DNA of 64,000 bases from an uncultured beta proteobacterium (GCA_903930255.1 CAIYYA010000226.1:1-64000); one strand, 5' to 3'; numbered from the stretch's first letter, positions 30,763-41,043 are shown. The notes: a model not told the origin generated them from the letters alone. Program-made: numbers and translations.

Positions 30763-31896
30763 CTAGCTGCGCTTGTAAACCGGGTAATCGGTGTAGCCCT
30801 TGGCACCACCGCCGTAAAAGGTGCTGCGATCGCCTGGTGCAAAAGCTTTGTTGCGGCGCAGCCGGTCGACCAGATCGGGGTTGGAAATAAAAGGGCGACC
30901 AAACGCAACCAGGTCAGCACCGTCAGCCAGTGCTTGCTCGGCGAGTGCTTTGTCGAGCCCATTGTTCACCATCCAGGCGCCTTTGCCGCCAGCAGCGCGG
31001 TAAGCACGACGCAAACCGGTGTAGTCAAAGGGGCGATCTGCCAACTCACGCGCGCCGCCGGTGGCGCCTTCGATGATGTGAAGATACGCCAGGTTATAGC
31101 CGGCGAGCTCGCGCACCACATAGTCAAACAGCGGTTGTGGGTCGGGGTCAAACGCGTCGTTGGCGGTTGTCACGGGCGACAAGCGAATGCCGGTGCGCTC
31201 GGCACCCACCGCCTGGGTTACGGCCTGCACCACTTCAAGCAGCAAACGGGCACGGTTTTCGATGCTGCCGCCGTAGTCGTCGCGTCGCACGTTGGAGCCG
31301 ATCTTGAGAAACTGGTCGAGCAAATAGCCATTGGCAGCATGAATTTCAACGCCATCGAAGTGGGCGCTTTCAACCGCATTGCGCGCAGCAGCCTGATAGG
31401 TATGCACAATTTCAGGTAATTCGTGCGCTTGCAGAGCGCGCGGCTCGGAGGTATCGACAAATGCGGGAACACCGTCCTGAATCAGCACCGTTTTGGTGTT
31501 GGCGCGAATCGCAGACGGTGCCACCGGTTGGCCTCCGTGGGGCTGCAGCGAGGTGTGCGAAACACGCCCCACATGCCAAAGCTGGACTACGATCTTGCCA
31601 CCGGCTGCATGCACACTGCGCGTCACCTGCTTCCAGCCATCAACTTGCTCAACGGCGTAAAGCCCAGGCACATCGGCGTAGCCCTGGCCTTGCTGGCTGA
31701 TGGCACTGGCTTCAGTAATCAGCAAGCCAGCACTGGCGCGCTGGGTGTAATACTCGGCCATGAGTGCGGTTGGAACGGCATTGGGTGCACGGTTGCGCGT
31801 CAGCGGCGCCATCACAATGCGGTTGGCAAGCTGCAGGTTGCCTGCATGGGTGGGGTCAAAAAGGGTTGCGGTACGGTGGGGCATCTGTCTCTCCAA
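30763..31896 (-). CDS. old yellow enzyme family alkene/N-ethylmaleimide reductase
   Basis: NRIVMAPLTRNRA, LWHVGRVSH, SAHFDGVEIHAANGYLLDQFL, YGGSIENRARLLLEV, FGRPFISNPDLV. Confidence 0.93.
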   Translation of the reverse strand: MERQMPHRTATLFDPTHAGNLQLANRIVMAPLTRNRAPNAVPTALMAEYYTQRASAGLLITEASAISQQGQGYADVPGLYAVEQVDGWKQVTRSVHAAGGKIVVQLWHVGRVSHTSLQPHGGQPVAPSAIRANTKTVLIQDGVPAFVDTSEPRALQAHELPEIVHTYQAAARNAVESAHFDGVEIHAANGYLLDQFLKIGSNVRRDDYGGSIENRARLLLEVVQAVTQAVGAERTGIRLSPVTTANDAFDPDPQPLFDYVVRELAGYNLAYLHIIEGATGGARELADRPFDYTGLRRAYRAAGGKGAWMVNNGLDKALAEQALADGADLVAFGRPFISNPDLVDRLRRNKAFAPGDRSTFYGGGAKGYTDYPVYKRS

Positions 31897-31943
31897 ATCA
31901 GGCGCTGATTATCTCTTTTGAAGAGCGCAACTTCTACGCACCT

Positions 31944-31992
31944 GATTTGATAGCTGCTCACGCTTGCTGCATAAGCGCCAGAGGCCAATTTG
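31944..31992 (+). repeat. dispersed ~48 nt repeat, copy 5
   Basis: tgatttgatagctgctcacgcttgctgcataagcgccagaggccaattt; exact match to 34914-34962. Confidence 0.9.
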
Positions 31993-31994
31993 GC

Positions 31995-32156
31995 TTACAA
32001 ACCCAGGGTCTGCCAAAGCGTTTCCACCCGCGCCGTCACCTCGGCGCTCATGCTCAAGGGCCGACCCCATTCACGCACATTCACATCGTCATCCACGACA
32101 ACGATGAACTTGGCAAGCATGAACTGGCGCAAAAAGCGCCAGGTGCCACACATCAC
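31995..32156 (-). pseudogene. decayed ubiD 3'-end fragment 1 (~170 nt internal deletion)
   Basis: acaaacccagggtctgccaaagcg...ccccattc/acgcacattcacatcgtcatccac...gaactggcgcaaaaagc parallels the intact ubiD 3' region 34965-35297. Confidence 0.85.
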
Positions 32157-32295
32157 TGAATACAACGGCACAAGCTTGCCCGGTCAGACAGTATTGACAC
32201 GAGAGAGAGAGAATTCCGCCGCTTTCTGCTTTGCAGACAGTTGTCAACTGCTTTTCTGCGGTTCTTTTCATCTCTTGTTTGACTACAAACTCACC

Positions 32296-32733
32296 ATGCT
32301 TCAAAACAAATGCTGTCACATTGTCCCCATCCGATTCACCCTGGCGCTGCTGGCCTGCCTGCCGGGCTTGGCCATGGCTACCTGCGTTGAGGTTTGCCCC
32401 ACCCAGTGGTCTAACCAAATCGTGCCCTCAATGATCATTGGGGCGCTCGGACTGATACTGACTATTTTTCTTGTGCGAAAAGATGGGGCTGAAAAGTCGT
32501 GTAGCCCAACTCTACCGGGTCAGAAACCGGCGTGTTACTACCGCTTGCGAACGCTGTATTTGATCGCGGTGGCCGTCGCCTGCAAGTTGGTGCTAACACT
32601 CTGCGGTTTAGATGCTGCCTGGGGCGATGCGTTGCTGGCCTTCAACAGCGTGCTGGCCGGGGTGTATGCCAGTCGGGGTTGGCTTGCTGTACCCAATCAA
32701 CCCCCTGTGGCCCAGCAAGAGGTGAGCAAATGA
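32296..32733 (+). CDS. small membrane protein, unknown function
   Basis: MLQNKCCHIVPIRFTLALLACLPGLAMA signal/TM, then TM segments; stop overlaps the start of the next CDS (ATGA). Confidence 0.65.
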   Translation: MLQNKCCHIVPIRFTLALLACLPGLAMATCVEVCPTQWSNQIVPSMIIGALGLILTIFLVRKDGAEKSCSPTLPGQKPACYYRLRTLYLIAVAVACKLVLTLCGLDAAWGDALLAFNSVLAGVYASRGWLAVPNQPPVAQQEVSK

Positions 32734-33812
32734 TGGGCCGGCACCACGCCCGTGGCCTGATGGGTTTGTTCGCCGCTCTGTTACTCAGCGGCGTCGCAAG
32801 CGCCCAAAACCTGACGCTCTGGAATACCTATTTTGGTCAATGCTCGCAAGCTCACGACCAAGCCAACTGGCAGGCGGTGGATAACTTTTGCCAGGCTGCT
32901 GAAAAAGAAGCCTACAAATTTGGCAATATGAGTAGTCAAGTCGGCGATATCAACAACGTTTACGGCAACATTTTCAAAGACATCGGACGCTATGCGGAAG
33001 CCGAAAAGGCTTACAAGCTGGCGCTCGCCATTCGTGAGCAAAATGTCAACAACTGCAACAACTGCGTTGCAATACTGGCAGAAACCCAGAATAACCTGGG
33101 CGGCCTTTACGTACTGCAAGGCCGATTGAATGATGCCGAAACCCTGCAGCGCAAGGCGCTGGCTCTGAAGGAAAAGGTTTTGGGTCGCAATCATGCTCAT
33201 GTAGCGCACACACTAAACAACCTGGCGCTAACACTGTATAACCAAGGCAATACCATTGAGGCGGAGACGCTGTACTTGCGCGCCATGGCCATTTACGTCA
33301 GCCAAGCCCCCAACTCAAATGCTTTGGCCAATACCTATAACAATTTGGGGATTCTGTACTCGGATCAAAAAAAGTCGGATGAAGCCATCGTGTTTTATGA
33401 AAAAGCGCTGCAACTCCGAATCAAAATCCTGCTGGAAAATCACCCCGATTTGGCGGTGAGTTACAACAATCTTGGCAATATCTATATCGATCTGGCGGCC
33501 TACGAGAAAGCGCTGCCCTTGCTGGAAAAGAGCTGGGGCATTCGCCAAGCCAATTTGCCCGATACCCATGCCGACCTCGGCCAGAGCCAGGAGAATATTG
33601 GCCGGGCTTTGGCCGGGTTGACGCGCTATGCCGAGGCCGAACCACATTTGCGTGATGGGCTGAAACGCCGTGAAGCCAGCTATGGCAAAAACAGTGGGCC
33701 AGTCGCTTACGTGCTGGTGCAGCTTGCACCGGTGTTGCGCGCCACCAAGCGCATCAAAGAAGCCACCACCCTGGAAAAACGCGCAGCAACTATTCGCAAG
33801 AACTTGAAGTGA
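32730..33812 (+). CDS. exported TPR-repeat protein (kinesin light chain-like repeats)
   Basis: Signal peptide GLMGLFAALLLSGVASAQ; repeats such as AETQNNLGGLYVLQGRLNDAETLQRKALALKEKVLG. Confidence 0.85.
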   Translation: MMGRHHARGLMGLFAALLLSGVASAQNLTLWNTYFGQCSQAHDQANWQAVDNFCQAAEKEAYKFGNMSSQVGDINNVYGNIFKDIGRYAEAEKAYKLALAIREQNVNNCNNCVAILAETQNNLGGLYVLQGRLNDAETLQRKALALKEKVLGRNHAHVAHTLNNLALTLYNQGNTIEAETLYLRAMAIYVSQAPNSNALANTYNNLGILYSDQKKSDEAIVFYEKALQLRIKILLENHPDLAVSYNNLGNIYIDLAAYEKALPLLEKSWGIRQANLPDTHADLGQSQENIGRALAGLTRYAEAEPHLRDGLKRREASYGKNSGPVAYVLVQLAPVLRATKRIKEATTLEKRAATIRKNLK

Positions 33813-33848
33813 TCGACAAGTCGATTGAAAGCATGGATTCGCTCTACT

Positions 33849-33894
33849 AAAAATAGCAACTTATACTTGCCATATAAGCGCTGCAGGCCAATTT
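33849..33894 (+). repeat. dispersed ~48 nt repeat, copy 6
   Basis: aaaaatagcaacttatacttgccatataagcgctgcaggccaattt. Confidence 0.75.
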
Positions 33895-33897
33895 AGC

Positions 33898-33980
33898 TCA
33901 CAAACCCAGTATCTGCCAAAGCGCATCCACCCGGCCATTTGTGGGTGGCGTCGATGCCCATCTTGCTGCAAAGGCCGCTC
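33898..33980 (-). pseudogene. decayed ubiD 3'-end fragment 2 (~60 nt internal deletion)
   Basis: tcacaaacccagtatctgccaaagcgcatccacccg / gccatttgtgggtggcgtcgatgcccatcttgctgcaaaggccgctc parallels 34965-35106. Confidence 0.8.
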
Positions 33981-34204
33981 AAGTTCGACACTTCCTGCAG
34001 GTAAGCAATTGATTTCATTAGAAACAGATATCAAAGCGCAGACTACAAAACGGGTTTTACCAAGTCTGAGGGCATCAGTAGTGTCAAATCCAGTGCCGCA
34101 AAAAACGGCATTTTGATGCATCTGTTTTGATAGTGGTTGCGCCGATAGCCACCTGGGTTGACTCAACTCACTAAAATGTGACTTTTTGATGTAAAGGCGT
34201 TTTT

Positions 34205-34501
34205 ATGCGTACCACCCTGGATATCCCCGACGATACCTTTCGCCAGCTCAAGGCGCAGGCGGCACTCAACGGCATGAAGCTCAAAGAATTGGTCACCCAA
34301 TTGATTCAGCGTGGCTTGACCAGCGGGGTGACTGCACCCAAGCCAGCGCGGGCACCAAGTTCGCCACCCATTGCGATCCAACGTGTTCAAGGCACGCCGT
34401 TGACACCGGCACTCAGCAACGCCCAGCTTTATGCCATTTTGAATGACCAAGATCTGGCGCAATACCAAAGCGTGTTGCAGCAATCCACCGCACTCAAATG
34501 A
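34205..34501 (+). CDS. RHH-type antitoxin (VapB-like)
   Basis: MRTTLDIPDDTFRQLKAQAALNGMKLKELVTQLIQRGL; overlaps the PIN gene by ATGA. Confidence 0.8.
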   Translation: MRTTLDIPDDTFRQLKAQAALNGMKLKELVTQLIQRGLTSGVTAPKPARAPSSPPIAIQRVQGTPLTPALSNAQLYAILNDQDLAQYQSVLQQSTALK

Positions 34502-34920
34502 TCGACCTTCCTGACATCAACGTCTGGCTGGCCTTGGTGGACGAAAACCACATGCACCACGTGGCCGCGCTTGACTACTGGAATCAGGCGTGCGCAGACC
34601 AAATGGGGTTTTGCCGCGTCACCATGCTCGGTTTCATGCGCCTGTGTACGCAGCCACGGGTGCTGAGCCGCACCCTGTCCAACCCGGAGGTTTGGGATAT
34701 TTACCAGCGCTACCTGGCCACGCCAAATCTTGTTTTTCTGGCAGAACCCAGCAACCTGGAGCCGCATTTACGCGCGCTGACCCGAGACACCAGTCTGCCC
34801 AACCGTTGTTGGACGGATGCCTACCTGGCGGCGTACACGCTCGCAACACCTGCCCGACTGGTTTCTTTCGACCGTGACTTTCAGCGCTTTGAAGGGCTGG
34901 ATTTTTTGCACCTGATTTGA
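34498..34920 (+). CDS. PIN-domain toxin (VapC-like)
   Basis: IDLPDINVWLALVDENHMHHVAALDYW; RCWTDAYLAAYTLATPARLVSFDRDF. Confidence 0.85.
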   Translation: MIDLPDINVWLALVDENHMHHVAALDYWNQACADQMGFCRVTMLGFMRLCTQPRVLSRTLSNPEVWDIYQRYLATPNLVFLAEPSNLEPHLRALTRDTSLPNRCWTDAYLAAYTLATPARLVSFDRDFQRFEGLDFLHLI

Positions 34921-34962
34921 TAGCTGCTCACGCTTGCTGCATAAGCGCCAGAGGCCAATTTT
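34914..34962 (+). repeat. dispersed ~48 nt repeat, copy 7
   Basis: Identical to 31944-31992; contains the PIN-gene stop codon. Confidence 0.9.
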
Positions 34963-34964
34963 TC

Positions 34965-36449
34965 TCACAAACCCAGGGTCTGCCAAAGCGCTTCAATGCG
35001 CGCCGTGACCTCGGGGCTCATACTCAAAGGCCGGCCCCATTCGCGGCTGGTTTCGCCCTGCCACTTGTTGGTGGCATCCAGCCCCATCTTGCTGCCCAGG
35101 CCGCTCACGGGCGAGGCAAAGTCGAGATAGTCAATCGGTGTGTTGTCGGCCAGCAGGGTGTCACGGGTGGGATCGACCCTGGTGGTGATGGCCCAGATCA
35201 CGTCCGCCCAGTCACGCACATTCACATCATCATCCACCACCACAATGAACTTGGTGTACATGAACTGACGCAAAAAGCTCCAGATACCAAACATCACGCG
35301 GCGCGCGTGGCCGGGGTAGGCTTTTTTGATGCTGACCACCGCCATGCGGTAACTGCAGCCCTCAGGCGGCAGATAAAAATCGGTGATTTCGGGGTATTGA
35401 CGCTGCAACAGCGGCACAAACAACTCGTTCAGCGCCAGCGCCAACATGGCTGGTTCATCGGGCGGTTTGCCGGTGTAGGTCGAGTGGTAAATCGGGTCAC
35501 GCCGTTGCGTGATGCGCTCGATGGTGAACACTGGGAACTCAGCCTGTTCGTTGTAATAGCCGGTGTGGTCGCCAAACGGGCCTTCGAGCGCATGCTCAAA
35601 GCCGCTTTTGTGCGTGGCGTCCGGGTGAATATGTCCTTCGAGCACGATTTCGGCAAAAGCCGGCACCCGCAACTCACTGCCCAAAGCTTTCACCAGCTCG
35701 GTGCGGCTGCCACGCAGCAGGCCGGCAAACTGGTATTCGCTCAAACTGTCGGGCACGGGCGTGACCGCACCCAAAATCGTCGCCGGGTCGGCACCCAATG
35801 CAACGCAAACCGGGTACGCACGGCCTGGGAAAAGCGCAGCGTGCTCCTTAAAGTCTAGCGCGCCACCACGGTGAGGAAGCCAGCGCATGATGACTTTGTT
35901 GCGTGCTAGCACCTGCTGGCGGTAGATGCCCAGGTTTTGCCGCGCCTTGTGCGGCCCCTGGGTGATGACCAGTCCCCAGGTGATGAGCGGCGCCACATCG
36001 CCCGGCCAGCAGTGCTGAACGGGTAAGCGTGCCAAATCCACATCAGAGCCTTCCCAGACGATGTCTTGGCAGGGTGCACTGCTGAGTTCTTTGGGCGCCA
36101 TGTTCCACAAGGTTTTGACCAGGCTGCCCATGCCCACCAGCTCTTTGAAGCCCTTGGGCGCTTCGGGCTCCTTCAGCGCGGCCAGCACGTGGCCAAATTG
36201 GCGCAGTTCAGCCACATTGCTGACCCCCATGCCCAATGCCACGCGGCGGGTGGTGCCAAACAGATTGCCCAGCACCGGCGTGCGGTGGCCGGTGGGATTT
36301 TCAAATAGCAGAGCCGGGCCGCCGGCGCGCAGGGTGCGGTCGCACAGGGCGGTCATTTCCAGGTGCGGTGAGACCTGGGCTGGCACACGTTTGAGTTCAC
36401 CCAGTTGCTCCAGCTGGGTGATGAAATCTCGCAGGTCACGGTAAGCCAT
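34965..36449 (-). CDS. ubiD: UbiD 4-hydroxy-3-polyprenylbenzoate decarboxylase
   Basis: [76 protein letters not shown]. Confidence 0.95.
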
Positions 36450-36492
36450 CGGTTTGATCCTTGGTTTTATTAGTTCCTAGAAAATCTTCTGG

Positions 36493-36537
36493 CTACAAAC
36501 TACAAACTACAAACTACAAACTAATAACTAATAACTA
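36493..36537. repeat. heptanucleotide tandem array 1
   Basis: 4x CTACAAA + 2x CTAATAA + CTA in strict 7-bp register; provides the ubiX stop codon. Confidence 0.92.
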
Positions 36538-37124
36538 TCCCCACTTGGCATGCCACCCCAGCGCGGCGCATTGGCTTGCGGCAAGCCCAGCAAATCGAGC
36601 ACCCGACTCACCGTGTGGTCAACCATCTGATCAAGCGACTCGGGCCGATGGTAAAAACTGGGTACGGGCGGAAAGATGATGCCGCCCATCTCGGTCACAC
36701 TGGTCATATTGCGCAGGTGCGCCAGGTTCAGCGGGGTTTCGCGCACCATCAAAATCAGCTTGCGGCGCTCTTTCAGCATGACATCGGCGGCACGCGTGAT
36801 CAGGTTATCAGACAGGCCGTGCGCCACCGCCGCCAGCGTGCGCATGGAGCAAGGCGCGATCACCATGCCATCACACGGGAATGAGCCACTGGCAATGGCT
36901 GCGCCGACATCCTGCACGCAATACACCACATCGGCCAAATCTTCCAGCTTGGCGCGCGGCATGTCGAGCTCTTGCTGCAGGTTGAGCCAGCCGGCCTCTG
37001 ACACGGTTAAATGGGTGCGCACATGATCCATGGCGCGCAACATTTGCAGCAGGCGCACGCCATACACGGCACCACTGGCACCCGAGATGGCCAGCACGAT
37101 ACGTTTGTGGGGAGATTGACTCAT
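36528..37124 (-). CDS. ubiX: UbiX flavin prenyltransferase
   Basis: RIVLAISGASGAVYGVRLLQML; PCSMRTLAAVAHGLSDNLITRAADVMLKERRKLILMVRETPLNLAHLRNM. Confidence 0.94.
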   Translation of the reverse strand: MSQSPHKRIVLAISGASGAVYGVRLLQMLRAMDHVRTHLTVSEAGWLNLQQELDMPRAKLEDLADVVYCVQDVGAAIASGSFPCDGMVIAPCSMRTLAAVAHGLSDNLITRAADVMLKERRKLILMVRETPLNLAHLRNMTSVTEMGGIIFPPVPSFYHRPESLDQMVDHTVSRVLDLLGLPQANAPRWGGMPSGDSY

Positions 37125-37143
37125 GGCAGTGAGCGTGATCGCG

Positions 37144-37689
37144 CTAGCGCGCCCTGAAGCCACCCAGCAAAGACCTGAAATGGGTGCGTGCCTGGCTCAG
37201 CACATGGCTGGGTTTAAGCTGCTCCAGATCAAGCATGGGCAGCTCGATCGCATCGATGGTGTTTTTCACCAGCAAACCCAGCTCGGTGTCGCCTTGCATG
37301 GCCAGACGGCGGTTAAAAAACAGTGTGTCTGGGTCTTCTTTGCGGCGTGCCAACAGCACAAAATCGTGGGCACTGGCACTAATGGTCAGGTCAGCTGCAG
37401 CAGTATTTTGGCAAGCCATAAAACGCCCATCGCGCCACTCAAAGTCGAAGGCAGATTGCGCGTCAGTGACGCACAGGCGCAACTTTTTGCCCACTAGCAT
37501 CTGCGTCACGTCAGGTGTTAACTGTTTGGCCAAAGCCACATTCAAGCCCAGCACCAGCAACATTGAGCCAGGGTAAGTGGGCAATCGACCCAAAAAATTG
37601 CCAATGGGTTTGGGTAAAACAAAGGGGGTGGCTGGCATCGAGGTGTCCTTATCGATTGATGTGGCAAGGGTGCGGCGCTTGACGGACAT
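37144..37689 (-). CDS. ubiT: SCP2-domain lipid-binding protein, UbiT-like
   Basis: SCP2-like fold region (MLVGKKLRLCVTDAQSAFDFEWRDGRFMACQ...DLTISASAHDFVLLARRKEDPDTLFFNRRLAMQGDTELGL), near ubiU/ubiV. Confidence 0.8.
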   Translation of the reverse strand: MSVKRRTLATSIDKDTSMPATPFVLPKPIGNFLGRLPTYPGSMLLVLGLNVALAKQLTPDVTQMLVGKKLRLCVTDAQSAFDFEWRDGRFMACQNTAAADLTISASAHDFVLLARRKEDPDTLFFNRRLAMQGDTELGLLVKNTIDAIELPMLDLEQLKPSHVLSQARTHFRSLLGGFRAR

Positions 37690-37691
37690 TA

Positions 37692-38864
37692 TCAGGTCAG
37701 CGCCATAAGTTCATCCATCAGCGCAGGCAGCGGCCTGTTTTGCGTATCAGCATTCAGGGCAAATGTGCTGCGAGCAGCGCTGACTACCAGTTTGCGTGTG
37801 GCCTGCACATCGGCTGCAGCAATATGGAACCCTCGGCTGGTCACGGGTGCGCTGGAGCGCTTGATTTCGACAGCCCAGCGTTGTCCACCCGGCAACTCCA
37901 GCAGCAAGTCAATCTCTGCGCCGGCAATGCTGCGGTAATAATAGGCTTGGGCATCGTCGGGGGCTGCGGCAATCAGATTTTCGATCACCATGCCCTCCCA
38001 ACTGCCACCGGCCACCGGATGCGCCAACACGTCTTCGCGCGTGGGCAAATTCAGCAAAGCGTGCGCTAGACCACTGTCGCGGATATACACCTTGGGCGAG
38101 CGCACCAATCGCTTGCCTACATTGCTGGCCCATGGAGTCAGCCGACGCACCAGCATCAGGTCGGTCATCAGATCAAGGTAACGCGCCACGGTTTGCCCAG
38201 ACAGTGCCAGTGAAGCCGCCAAGCGTGCTGCATTGTGAATTTGACCCTGCTCATGCGCCAGCATGGTCCAGTAGCGTCGCAGGGTTTCGGCTGGAATGCG
38301 CGTGCCGAGCATGGGAATGTCTCGCTCCAGATAAGTGCTGATGAACTGGCGTCGCCAGCGCAAGCTGGCCGCATCACTCCGACTCAGATACGACTGCGGA
38401 AAGCCTCCACGCAACCACAAATCATCCAATTCTTCAGACGTGTCAGGAATTTCACTGGCCAGCAGCGCTGGCAGCTCACAATAAGCCACGCGCCCAGCCA
38501 GACTCTCAGAGCTTTGGCGCAACAGACTGCCGCTGGCAGAGCCCAGCAGCAAAAATTGACCAACACACCGGCCAGAGCGCCGACGTTGGTCGATGATGCT
38601 GCGCAAGGTGACAAACAGTTCAGGGGCACGCTGAACCTCGTCGAGCACGATCAATTTGTCTGGGTGCGCACCAAGCAACAACTCGGGATCGGCCAGCTTG
38701 GCTCGATCAGACGGCAGCTCCAAGTCTAAATGCAAGCTCGGACGCGTTTGCCCCAGCGCAAAAGCCAGCGTGGTTTTGCCAACCTGACGTGGCCCCATAA
38801 TCACAACTGCCGGAAATTCGTCCAGCAAAAGTGATAACTTGGCTATAATTTTTCGTGAAATCAT
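37692..38864 (-). CDS. AAA ATPase with DUF4143 domain
   Basis: PAVVIMGPRQVGKTTLAFALG; LIVLDEVQRAPELF; FLLLGSASGSLLRQSSESLAGRVAYCELPALLASEI. Start set at MISRK in ORF 37692-38921. Confidence 0.88.
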   Translation of the reverse strand: MISRKIIAKLSLLLDEFPAVVIMGPRQVGKTTLAFALGQTRPSLHLDLELPSDRAKLADPELLLGAHPDKLIVLDEVQRAPELFVTLRSIIDQRRRSGRCVGQFLLLGSASGSLLRQSSESLAGRVAYCELPALLASEIPDTSEELDDLWLRGGFPQSYLSRSDAASLRWRRQFISTYLERDIPMLGTRIPAETLRRYWTMLAHEQGQIHNAARLAASLALSGQTVARYLDLMTDLMLVRRLTPWASNVGKRLVRSPKVYIRDSGLAHALLNLPTREDVLAHPVAGGSWEGMVIENLIAAAPDDAQAYYYRSIAGAEIDLLLELPGGQRWAVEIKRSSAPVTSRGFHIAAADVQATRKLVVSAARSTFALNADTQNRPLPALMDELMALT

Positions 38865-38924
38865 CCTTGTAATTATTCCATCAAATGGAAGATTTGCAAT
38901 GTTTATTGAGAGCCCAATCAACCC

Positions 38925-39809
38925 TCACACCAGTTCCAGCCCCGGCTTGCCATGCCAATAGCCGTTGCATGGCTTTTCGGGCATCAGGGTGCAAAGCTCG
39001 GCATTGGCCTCGAGCACTGGCAGCTGCCCACTCAGCACCGCATGAAACAGCTCGACGATGCGCAAGCTGTGTTGCGCCTGCGGGCTGATGCGCAGCACAT
39101 CCACACCCATGGCAGCCAGGGCGGGCAACTCGGGCAGCAGGTTATAGACCCGGGCCGACTGGGTTTGAATGCCGTTGAGCACCAAAAACCCCTCGTCTTC
39201 CTGGGTGCGCATGAGCAAACCGTCCGGGTGCTCGATGCATTTGAACTGGCAATCGTCCTTGGGCAAGTTGGCATGGCGGGCTGTGAAGCAGCGTGCCGAA
39301 AACGCCAACGGCATGCGGCCATAGCCAAAAACTTCGGTTTGCAACTGGGCCGGCTTGCCCTGCTGCATCAGCGCCAGATCAGCGCGGCTCATTTCAAGCG
39401 GAGCCACCCAGCGGCTGATGCCCAGTGGCGCCATCCATTGCAGCGTGGGCAGGTTGTAGATATTCAGATGTGGCCCGGCTACAAAGGGCACTTTGCCCTC
39501 CAGGCAGTGCACCGCGCCCATGTCATTGGCCTCGACCGTGTATTGCGCATTGGCCGTAATTTTGTGCAGCACGGTGACATCGGCGCCCGACTCAATCAGC
39601 ACCTGGGTTGACAGCACCACCTCTTTGCCCGCTTCGCGCAAGGCACCAGCGATGTCGAACCAATCGCTCAGCCGCACTTCGTGACGACGCGAGCAGACCG
39701 CCTCGCCCAAATAAACAATGTCCACCGGGCTGGCCGCAACCGCCGCATAAAAAGCCAGCACCTCGTCGCGTGGCCAATAGTAAAGAAGGGGGCCAAGAGC
39801 AAGTTTCAT
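38925..39809 (-). CDS. ubiV: UbiV, U32 peptidase-like O2-independent ubiquinone hydroxylation protein
   Basis: [50 protein letters not shown]; Cys set [19 protein letters not shown]. Confidence 0.9.
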
Positions 39810-39814
39810 AGAGA

Positions 39815-39900
39815 AGTTATTAGTTATTAGTTATTAGTTATTAGTTATTAGTTGGTAGTTATTAGTTGGTAGTTCGACTAAGGACTAATGACTAATGACT
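39815..39900. repeat. heptanucleotide tandem array 2
   Basis: 5x AGTTATT, then AGTTGGT/AGTTATT/AGTTGGT/AGTTCGA, then CTAAGGA, 2x CTAATGA, all in 7-bp register; second part partly inverted relative to the first. Confidence 0.92.
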
Positions 39901-39907
39901 TGGCACT

Positions 39908-40966
39908 TCATTTCCAAGGCCGGTGATAAGCGCCCAAGGTGTGCTGCTGTCCCTCGGCGACTTTATCCAGCTCGCTGATCCAACTTGGTTTGGCACTGTA
40001 GCGGTGCGGGTTGTCGCGGCAACTGTCAATGGCTGCACGCCAAACCTTTGTGACTTGCGCCACATAAGCTGGGCTGCGCTGGCGCCCCTCGATCTTGATG
40101 GCGCGCACGCCCATGCGCATCAGCTCGGGCAACAAAGACAAGGTGTTCAAACTGGTGGGCTCTTCAATTGCGTAATAGTTTTTGTCGTCTTCGACATCAA
40201 AGCGGCCTTTGCACAGCGTAGGGTAGCCAGCGTTTTCGCCCGGCGCATAGCGATCAATCAGCACACCATTCAGGCGCGATTCGCGTCCCTGCGGGGTTTC
40301 GACCCAGCGCACGGCCTTGGGTGGTGAACAAACGCCGTTGGTGTTGGGCGCTTCGCCGGTGACATAGCTCGACAAGGCACAGCGCCCCTCCACCATCACA
40401 CACAAACTGCCAAAGCCAAACACCTCGATCTCGACCCGTGATTTTTCGATCACCTGCTCCACCTGCGTCAGTGACAACACCCGTGGCAGCACCGCCCGGG
40501 CAATCCCAAAGTGCTGGTAGTAGAAATCAAGCGCCTCGTAGTTGGTGGCCGAGCCTTGCACCGACAAATGCAGACGCAGTTGCGGTTGATGTTTGACAGC
40601 GTAGGCCATCATGCCCGGGTCCGCCAGAATGACCGCATCGACTGCGTTGTGCGCAGCCCGATCGACCGCACGTTGCCATAACTCGGCCTTGGCCGCTTGC
40701 GGATAGGTGTTGAGCGCCACGAAAACCTTGCGCCCGCGCTCATGCGCATAGCGAATGCCGGCTTCGATCGCCTTCTCATCAAAATTCAGCCCAGCAAAGT
40801 TGCGCGCATTGGTGGCATCCCGAAAACCCAGATAGACGCAATCGGCACCGTTGTCCACCGCGGCTTTGAGCGCTGGCAGGCTGCCTGCCGGGCAAACCAG
40901 CTCCATCGGCACAGCTTGCTCGGCCTGGGATGGCGTTTTCGCTTGGGTATCTGCAACTAAATTCAT
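39908..40966 (-). CDS. ubiU: UbiU, U32 peptidase-like O2-independent ubiquinone hydroxylation protein
   Basis: MELVCPAGSLPALKAAVDNGADCVYLGFRDATNARNFAGLNF; Cys cluster LCVMVEGRCALSSYVTG...GVCSPP...LCKGRF. Start set at MNLVADTQ in ORF 39908-41026. Confidence 0.92.
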   Translation of the reverse strand: MNLVADTQAKTPSQAEQAVPMELVCPAGSLPALKAAVDNGADCVYLGFRDATNARNFAGLNFDEKAIEAGIRYAHERGRKVFVALNTYPQAAKAELWQRAVDRAAHNAVDAVILADPGMMAYAVKHQPQLRLHLSVQGSATNYEALDFYYQHFGIARAVLPRVLSLTQVEQVIEKSRVEIEVFGFGSLCVMVEGRCALSSYVTGEAPNTNGVCSPPKAVRWVETPQGRESRLNGVLIDRYAPGENAGYPTLCKGRFDVEDDKNYYAIEEPTSLNTLSLLPELMRMGVRAIKIEGRQRSPAYVAQVTKVWRAAIDSCRDNPHRYSAKPSWISELDKVAEGQQHTLGAYHRPWK

Positions 40967-41043
40967 ACAAATGGCTCGCGTGTTGGCCAAAGATCCTTGA
41001 AAAACCAAGTCGGCAAGGGTAGCCAAGCTTGATAGAGCGGTAA

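Follow-up and report, generated by a model that had tools for sequence, protein, structure and literature searches.

A candidate one-sided, integrase-free acquisition hotspot at the 3' end of ubiD in Rhodoferax

How do the remains of a housekeeping gene's 3' end come to lie one behind the other downstream of the intact gene, with unrelated genes filling the space between them? This question is raised by a stretch of 64,000 nucleotides from an uncultured beta proteobacterium (CAIYYA010000226.1, positions 1-64000; here called the window, contig C226 among the 377 contigs of a Rhodoferax-group genome), in which an intact ubiD is followed on its own strand by two decayed copies of its 3' end, stub B and stub A. 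Along this strand the order is ubiU, ubiV, a gene with an SCP2 domain, ubiX, ubiD, a VapBC-like pair, stub B, a TPR protein with a small protein, stub A, and a gene of the old-yellow-enzyme (OYE) family (Table 1). An earlier note, made from the sequence of the window alone, regarded the 3' end of ubiD as a hotspot of repeated insertion or recombination. The hotspot stands, but it is better described as displacement of the resident 3' end than as insertion at a site. We assign a probability of about 0.72 to the view that Rhodoferax has, at the ubiD 3' end, a hotspot of one-sided acquisition without an integrase, at which the resident 3' end is serially displaced.

In this scenario, incoming chromosomal DNA of a relative, comprising its ubiD and whatever lies behind it, would pair by homology with the resident ubiD or with the conserved upstream genes, and its far end, beyond the cargo, would be joined, with no long homology, to the resident ubiD tail at an internal point that differs from case to case. 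After the event, the cell would have one complete ubiD, now with the newcomer's 3' end, together with the cargo, and the old 3' end would stay on the old flank as a stub. Repeated events would yield the order ubiD, cargo 2, stub B, cargo 1, stub A, flank, a time series in which the age of a stub increases with its distance from the intact ubiD, and the stubs would later shrink by deletions between short repeats.

ubiD tails in series, in the window and in the genus

Alignment and tblastn bear out both decayed copies downstream of the intact gene and in its orientation, and the deletions that the earlier note had put at about 170 and 60 nt measure 171 nt in stub A and 59 nt in stub B. Stub A is 85% identical to the intact ubiD over positions 1153-1243 of the coding sequence (CDS) and 87% identical over positions 1405-1483; its deletion is bounded by the imperfect 10-bp repeats CGTGACTGGG and CGCGAATGGG, and it is matched by whole-genome tblastn with E=1e-9 and 3e-8. 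Compared with the window's own ubiD, the two stubs give E-values from 1e-5 to 1e-24, which excludes chance likeness. The gaps between the tails do hold open reading frames (ORFs) of cargo, as claimed: the TPR protein and VapC, a PIN protein, are recognized by Pfam, and their companions, a small protein that is probably membrane-bound and the putative VapB, have no match there. The 3' end of the intact ubiD is the newest tail of the series. From the positions we infer that the TPR segment is older than the VapBC pair, and hence the order of the two events in the window.

The suggestion that both stubs derive from one shared foreign allele could not be upheld. The motif 'ccacccg', which the stubs share and which had been taken as a sign of such an allele, represents the common codons of the genus (TARV/TAKV), and it is the intact gene of the window that carries a rarer Ile there. 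The distance of stub A from the intact gene (85.5% identity) is about that of the intact gene from other species (84.3%), and the stub still ranks its own gene first, whereas stub B, over only 52 nt, is 92% identical to the alleles of the L189/L191/L195 clade versus 83% to its own, which takes rank 38 of 56 (loci are designated by L numbers, genomes by G numbers). Judging from these identities, stubs A and B are probably two different alleles from two events.

The arrangement recurs in the genus. Ninety genus genomes were searched with the UbiD C-terminus, and then about 60 loci with a panel of ubiD sequences; downstream ubiD fragments on the same strand were found in about 15 of ~54 Rhodoferax loci. 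Such fragments occur in G000 (the window), G024, G042, G046, G054, G063, G066, G070, G080 and G081, and short pieces of 38-53 nt in G007, G055, G091, G096 and G105, while orphan stubs, on contigs without an intact end, are present in G021, G066, G071 and G090. Two stubs in series are found in the window and in L194. Since G042 is assembled in only two contigs, the stubs are not an artefact of metagenomes. The fragments show a polarity: the minus strand yielded one weak match and an inverted tail where a contig ends, and the upstream side, where the stretch was shorter (about 4.4 kb), a single case, a 5' fragment in G016. In the latter genome (L033/L211), ubiX and the intact ubiD are separated by a 98% identical copy of the initial ~250 nt of ubiD and by an ORF of 907 aa, as a mirror image of the downstream cases. 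The inverted tail (L086/L216, 4513-4898) lies at a contig end of G066 beside a truncated ubiD, in a genome with further stubs on other contigs, and may be an assembly fold-back.

In a control in which genes of the same loci were compared with their own downstream sequence, a fragment was found for ubiD in 8/51 cases and for other genes in 18/703, the latter being mostly antisense ORFs, paralogues or very short matches. Likewise, among 85 genomes a tail fragment of high identity to nuoN turned up only at one contig break, and for glnA none was found beyond contig breaks among the matches listed (to about E=5e-15). However, nuoN and glnA are not known to border a variable region, and ubiD may therefore be one of several such anchor genes. 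Another set, of 80 loci, covered many genera, and clear downstream stubs on the same strand were confined in it to Rhodoferax-group loci and L096, a Burkholderiales metagenome-assembled genome not placed to genus. The order ubiU-ubiV-SCP2-ubiX-ubiD is conserved, and the first downstream gene is unique to one locus in 28/55. Thus, the variable cargo between ubiD tails that the earlier note expected among relatives is seen across the 90 genus genomes; the arrangement is not constant, and the fragments are those of ubiD rather than of an unrelated gene. In the literature we found no description of a ubiD hotspot.

Old and new gene ends

Which of the tails is the resident one can be judged from loci that share a flank. 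Flank I (clusters c27, c10, c8, c16 and further ones) lies directly behind ubiD in L184, L185 and L188, and behind a stub in L189, L192 and L195. In particular, 5.5 kb of L195, from the stub away from ubiD, run collinear with L188 at 94% identity, and collinearity resumes in ubiD; the space between the stub and the intact ubiD of L195 holds a type IIG-like restriction-methylase of 1267 aa. L192/L188 and L189/L185 are further pairs of filled and empty sites, L192 with quinone-oxidoreductase-like and LysR-type genes (named by sequence inspection) that are common to L191, and L189 with AbiLi/AbiLii-like (RloB-type) genes common to L196. By genome, the stub and all DNA beyond it are collinear with the empty-site relative in G042 (94%) and G063 (89-95%), with the cargo inside; in G063 the DNA after the stub is of the empty-site type, and that after the intact ubiD matches the genome sharing the cargo. 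By locus, the swap of flanks is seen in L192, where the sequence following the stub has 89% identity with the empty site L188 versus 71% with the locus's own intact downstream region, and that following the intact ubiD has 84% identity with the cargo-sharing L191 versus 73% with L188, as well as in L195, whose stub flank is 95% identical to L188 and whose intact flank is 64% identical, near the shuffled background.

Flank II (c9, c7, c11, c14) directly follows ubiD in L175 and L200, and follows a stub of ~50 nt in L198, L199, L205, L206 and L209, with traces in L193, L201 and L203; the best matches of all five stubs adjoining c9 are to L175 and L200, where ubiD and c9 are immediate neighbours. 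Together with the flank swap in L192 and L195, this result indicates that the stub goes with the old flank and that the intact 3' end came with the cargo; in the best cases, the stub belongs to the old flank. The ~50-nt stubs before c9 (L198, L199, L201, L205, L206, L209) retain the conserved blocks GGTGACAGCCA and TTTGGCAGACT, the rest having drifted. They may have been kept by selection as part of a putative c9 promoter, which would also keep them alike.

The same end product could arise if a circle with a ubiD tail and cargo, e.g. one popped out between direct tails, entered by a single crossover in ubiD, as in Campbell-type integration. The cargo of the filled sites is indeed flanked by direct ubiD tails, and some cargo sets are common to different species (c104-c88 in L189 and L196, c80-c83 in L191 and L192). 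However, the cargo-sharing L191 and L196 lack the stub where a circle needs one (L196 ends 2.4 kb downstream), and in the plasmid and phage collections a ubiD tail of the Rhodoferax type is absent, the ubiD genes present there belonging to other bacteria and being 60-80% identical; we therefore regard this entry as unlikely. It is tempting to go further and to consider the tail-flanked cargo as a self-propagating, enzyme-free mobile unit, which would pop out via its direct ubiD tails and, with a single tail, retarget the ubiD 3' end of relatives. Such a unit, which we think quite unlikely, would spread defence and toxin-antitoxin genes without an integrase.

Stubs could also be generated if the ubiD 3' end were repeatedly duplicated in tandem and the copies were separated by the entry of unrelated genes. 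Stubs closest to their own intact allele, in L031, L096, L192 and L219, and the own-first rank of stub A would agree with this process, but the flank swap in L192 and L195, and stub B and the c9 stubs, which are nearer to other genomes than to their own, contradict it. So does the distribution of substitutions among codon positions. When eight stubs, two of them from the window, were compared with their own intact gene, 70/107 differences fell at third codon positions (p=0.0009 versus the most permissive duplication null), whereas in a neutral duplicate the third-position share is at most one half, even if the intact copy is perfectly constrained. The excess implies that most of the divergence arose while both copies were functional, in different lineages; stub and intact copies thus diverged as functional alleles before they met. 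Duplication is among the least probable explanations. A tree of the ubiD tails was also tried as proof of foreign stubs and was rejected for this purpose, as it put several stubs next to their own allele; the case rests instead on the empty/filled pairs, the flank swap and the codon positions.

Cargo, junctions and the dispersed repeat

Pfam scans of the window cargo and of 30 cargo proteins of relatives revealed a mixed content, with defence-like genes (AbiL/RloB-type, type IIG restriction-methylase, a helicase/Eco57I-methylase cluster), toxin-antitoxin genes, which we count among the defence-like ones, GGDEF and sensor proteins, and enzymes. Judged by these families, part of the cargo looks like phage defence. 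Among these proteins there was no integrase, in agreement with the earlier note, and no phage or conjugative gene, apart from one IS91-type transposase. It could be argued that integrase-borne islands with a replacement gene end inserted in the ubiD 3' end and that the integrase was later lost, and such islands would produce the same layout of new 3' end, cargo and displaced old end; prophage-like elements in icd carry a replacement gene end of this kind. However, besides the missing integrase, the stubs start at points that vary from CDS ~707 to ~1446, and neither a constant attachment core nor a fixed stub start was found over this spread of >700 nt, which makes the islands very improbable.

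The ~60-bp dispersed repeat is found by nhmmer behind all three tails of the window, and directly behind the ubiD stop in 24/66 loci, and could itself be the recombination site, cargo entering or leaving by repeat exchange and dragging the ubiD tails along. The copies behind stub A and behind the intact ubiD (31938-31991 and 34908-34961) share a stretch of 54 identical nt, although the tails next to them have diverged by ~14%. Yet the junctions lie inside ubiD, and the repeat is missing at several stubs (L096, L183, L189 and the c9 type) and after most intact ubiD genes, and is present at many other places in the genome, so that a role as the site is no more probable than tandem duplication. 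In many loci the repeat is a passenger of the ubiD tail and not a required junction motif. Since the next best genomic copy gives only 91% over 43 nt, the 54-nt identity likely reflects local gene conversion or exchange between the two window copies. Rfam has no family for the repeat, its RNA folds no better than shuffles, an alignment of 29 copies gave no consensus structure, and the literature contains no description that we could find.

Several observations weigh against serial displacement or restrict it. The foreign origin of the new tail is seen in the best cases only, and in the ubiD tail tree the stubs of L031, L096, L192 and L219 are sister to their own intact allele, suggesting that the donors were often close relatives. 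For the window, a relative with an empty OYE-ubiD site was sought and none was found. Cargo-sharing pairs are 80-87% identical, i.e. no recent donor tract has been caught, and a single old event may account for several of the c9-type loci. No clear microhomology was seen at the cargo/stub joins of L189, L192 and L195, for which exact donor ends are lacking. Finally, the identity of two repeat copies beside tails that have diverged by 14% does not fit the displacement scenario in a simple way. The second join would be illegitimate, and uptake would occur by natural transformation: ComEC was detected in 21/21 genomes checked (above the cut-off in 19), which makes transformation possible but is permissive only.

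Table 1. Features around ubiD in the window
Feature	Position	Strand	Basis and remarks
OYE-family gene, distal flank	30763-31896	minus	Pfam Oxidored_FMN
Dispersed repeat behind stub A	31937-31996	minus	nhmmer E=8.8e-14; DNA search
Stub A, ubiD CDS 1153-1243 + 1405-1483	31995-32162	minus	alignment; 171-nt in-frame deletion, open frame to TAA
Cargo 1, small protein, probably membrane-bound	32296-32733	plus	ORF; no Pfam or PADLOC match
Cargo 1, TPR protein	32730-33812	plus	Pfam TPR_10/TPR_12
Dispersed repeat behind stub B	33837-33898	minus	nhmmer E=2.9e-06
Stub B, ubiD CDS 1343-1396 + 1449-1485	33898-33988	minus	alignment; 59-nt deletion
Cargo 2, putative VapB-like antitoxin	34205-34501	plus	by position, ORF overlapping vapC; no Pfam match
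Cargo 2, VapC-like PIN protein	34498-34920	plus	Pfam PIN E=4.5e-08
Dispersed repeat (~60 bp) directly after ubiD stop, overlapping vapC stop	34905-34965	minus	nhmmer E=1e-13; 54 nt identical to stub A copy
Intact ubiD, anchor gene	34965-36449	minus	Pfam UbiD N, Rift and C domains; full-length in relatives
Upstream block: ubiX, SCP2-domain gene, (extra AAA_14/DUF4143 gene), ubiV, ubiU	36528-41026	minus	same order in relatives

The neighbourhood of ubiD shows some further peculiarities. Several relatives, among them G010 and G024, have the OYE gene on the contig of the ubi block but upstream of that block, whereas in the window it lies behind ubiD; the distal flank of the window has thus itself been rearranged. 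An AAA_14/DUF4143 gene (37692-38921, minus strand) is present between the SCP2-domain gene and ubiV, where relatives lack it, and in L199/L059 a member of this family is the cargo that immediately follows ubiD. Short tandem arrays of 7-mers occur in two spacers between genes of the ubi block, CTACAAA/CTAATAA at 36490-36540 and AGTTATT/AGTTGGT at 39801-39870, which are mutually inverted.

Comparison with known systems

In the laboratory, recombination of the one-sided kind is seldom obtained, and in nature it is difficult to observe. The stubs at the ubiD end record the order of acquisition, mark the junctions and identify the displaced allele; if serial displacement is confirmed, the natural rates, donor distance and junction rules of one-sided recombination will become measurable, and repeated 3' ends of core genes will offer a simple search for integrase-free hotspots elsewhere.

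Some integrase-borne elements restore the 3' end of their target gene. As with these elements, the host gene at the ubiD locus keeps a complete frame with a new 3' end and the old end is displaced downstream; the ubiD locus differs in that no integrase and no fixed crossover core were found. For hotspots without integrases, double homologous recombination in both flanking core genes has been proposed (Oliveira et al. 2017, PMC5635113). The high turnover of genes beside a core gene, without recognisable mobile elements, is common to those hotspots and to ubiD; however, double recombination leaves no stub, whereas the ubiD locus is displaced on one side, with the stubs at the distal side.

The closest parallel is provided by effector-immunity modules of the type VI secretion system (T6SS), for which sequential displacement by homology-facilitated illegitimate recombination has been proposed (Kirchberger et al. 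2017, PMC5361080); the same paper cites orphan 3' ends at Rhs and contact-dependent inhibition (CDI) loci. In both T6SS arrays and the ubiD locus, a conserved upstream anchor is joined to a new 3' part with its genes, and the old 3' end with its genes is shifted downstream in the same orientation, in series. On the other hand, the ubiD anchor is not a toxin whose C-terminus varies but a housekeeping gene of the ubiquinone pathway, the old end persists only as a non-coding stub, and the cargo is unrelated to the anchor. Thus, while the process is known from T6SS/Rhs loci, what would be new here is a serial displacement that needs no integrase, has a housekeeping gene as its anchor and has left fossils throughout the genus.

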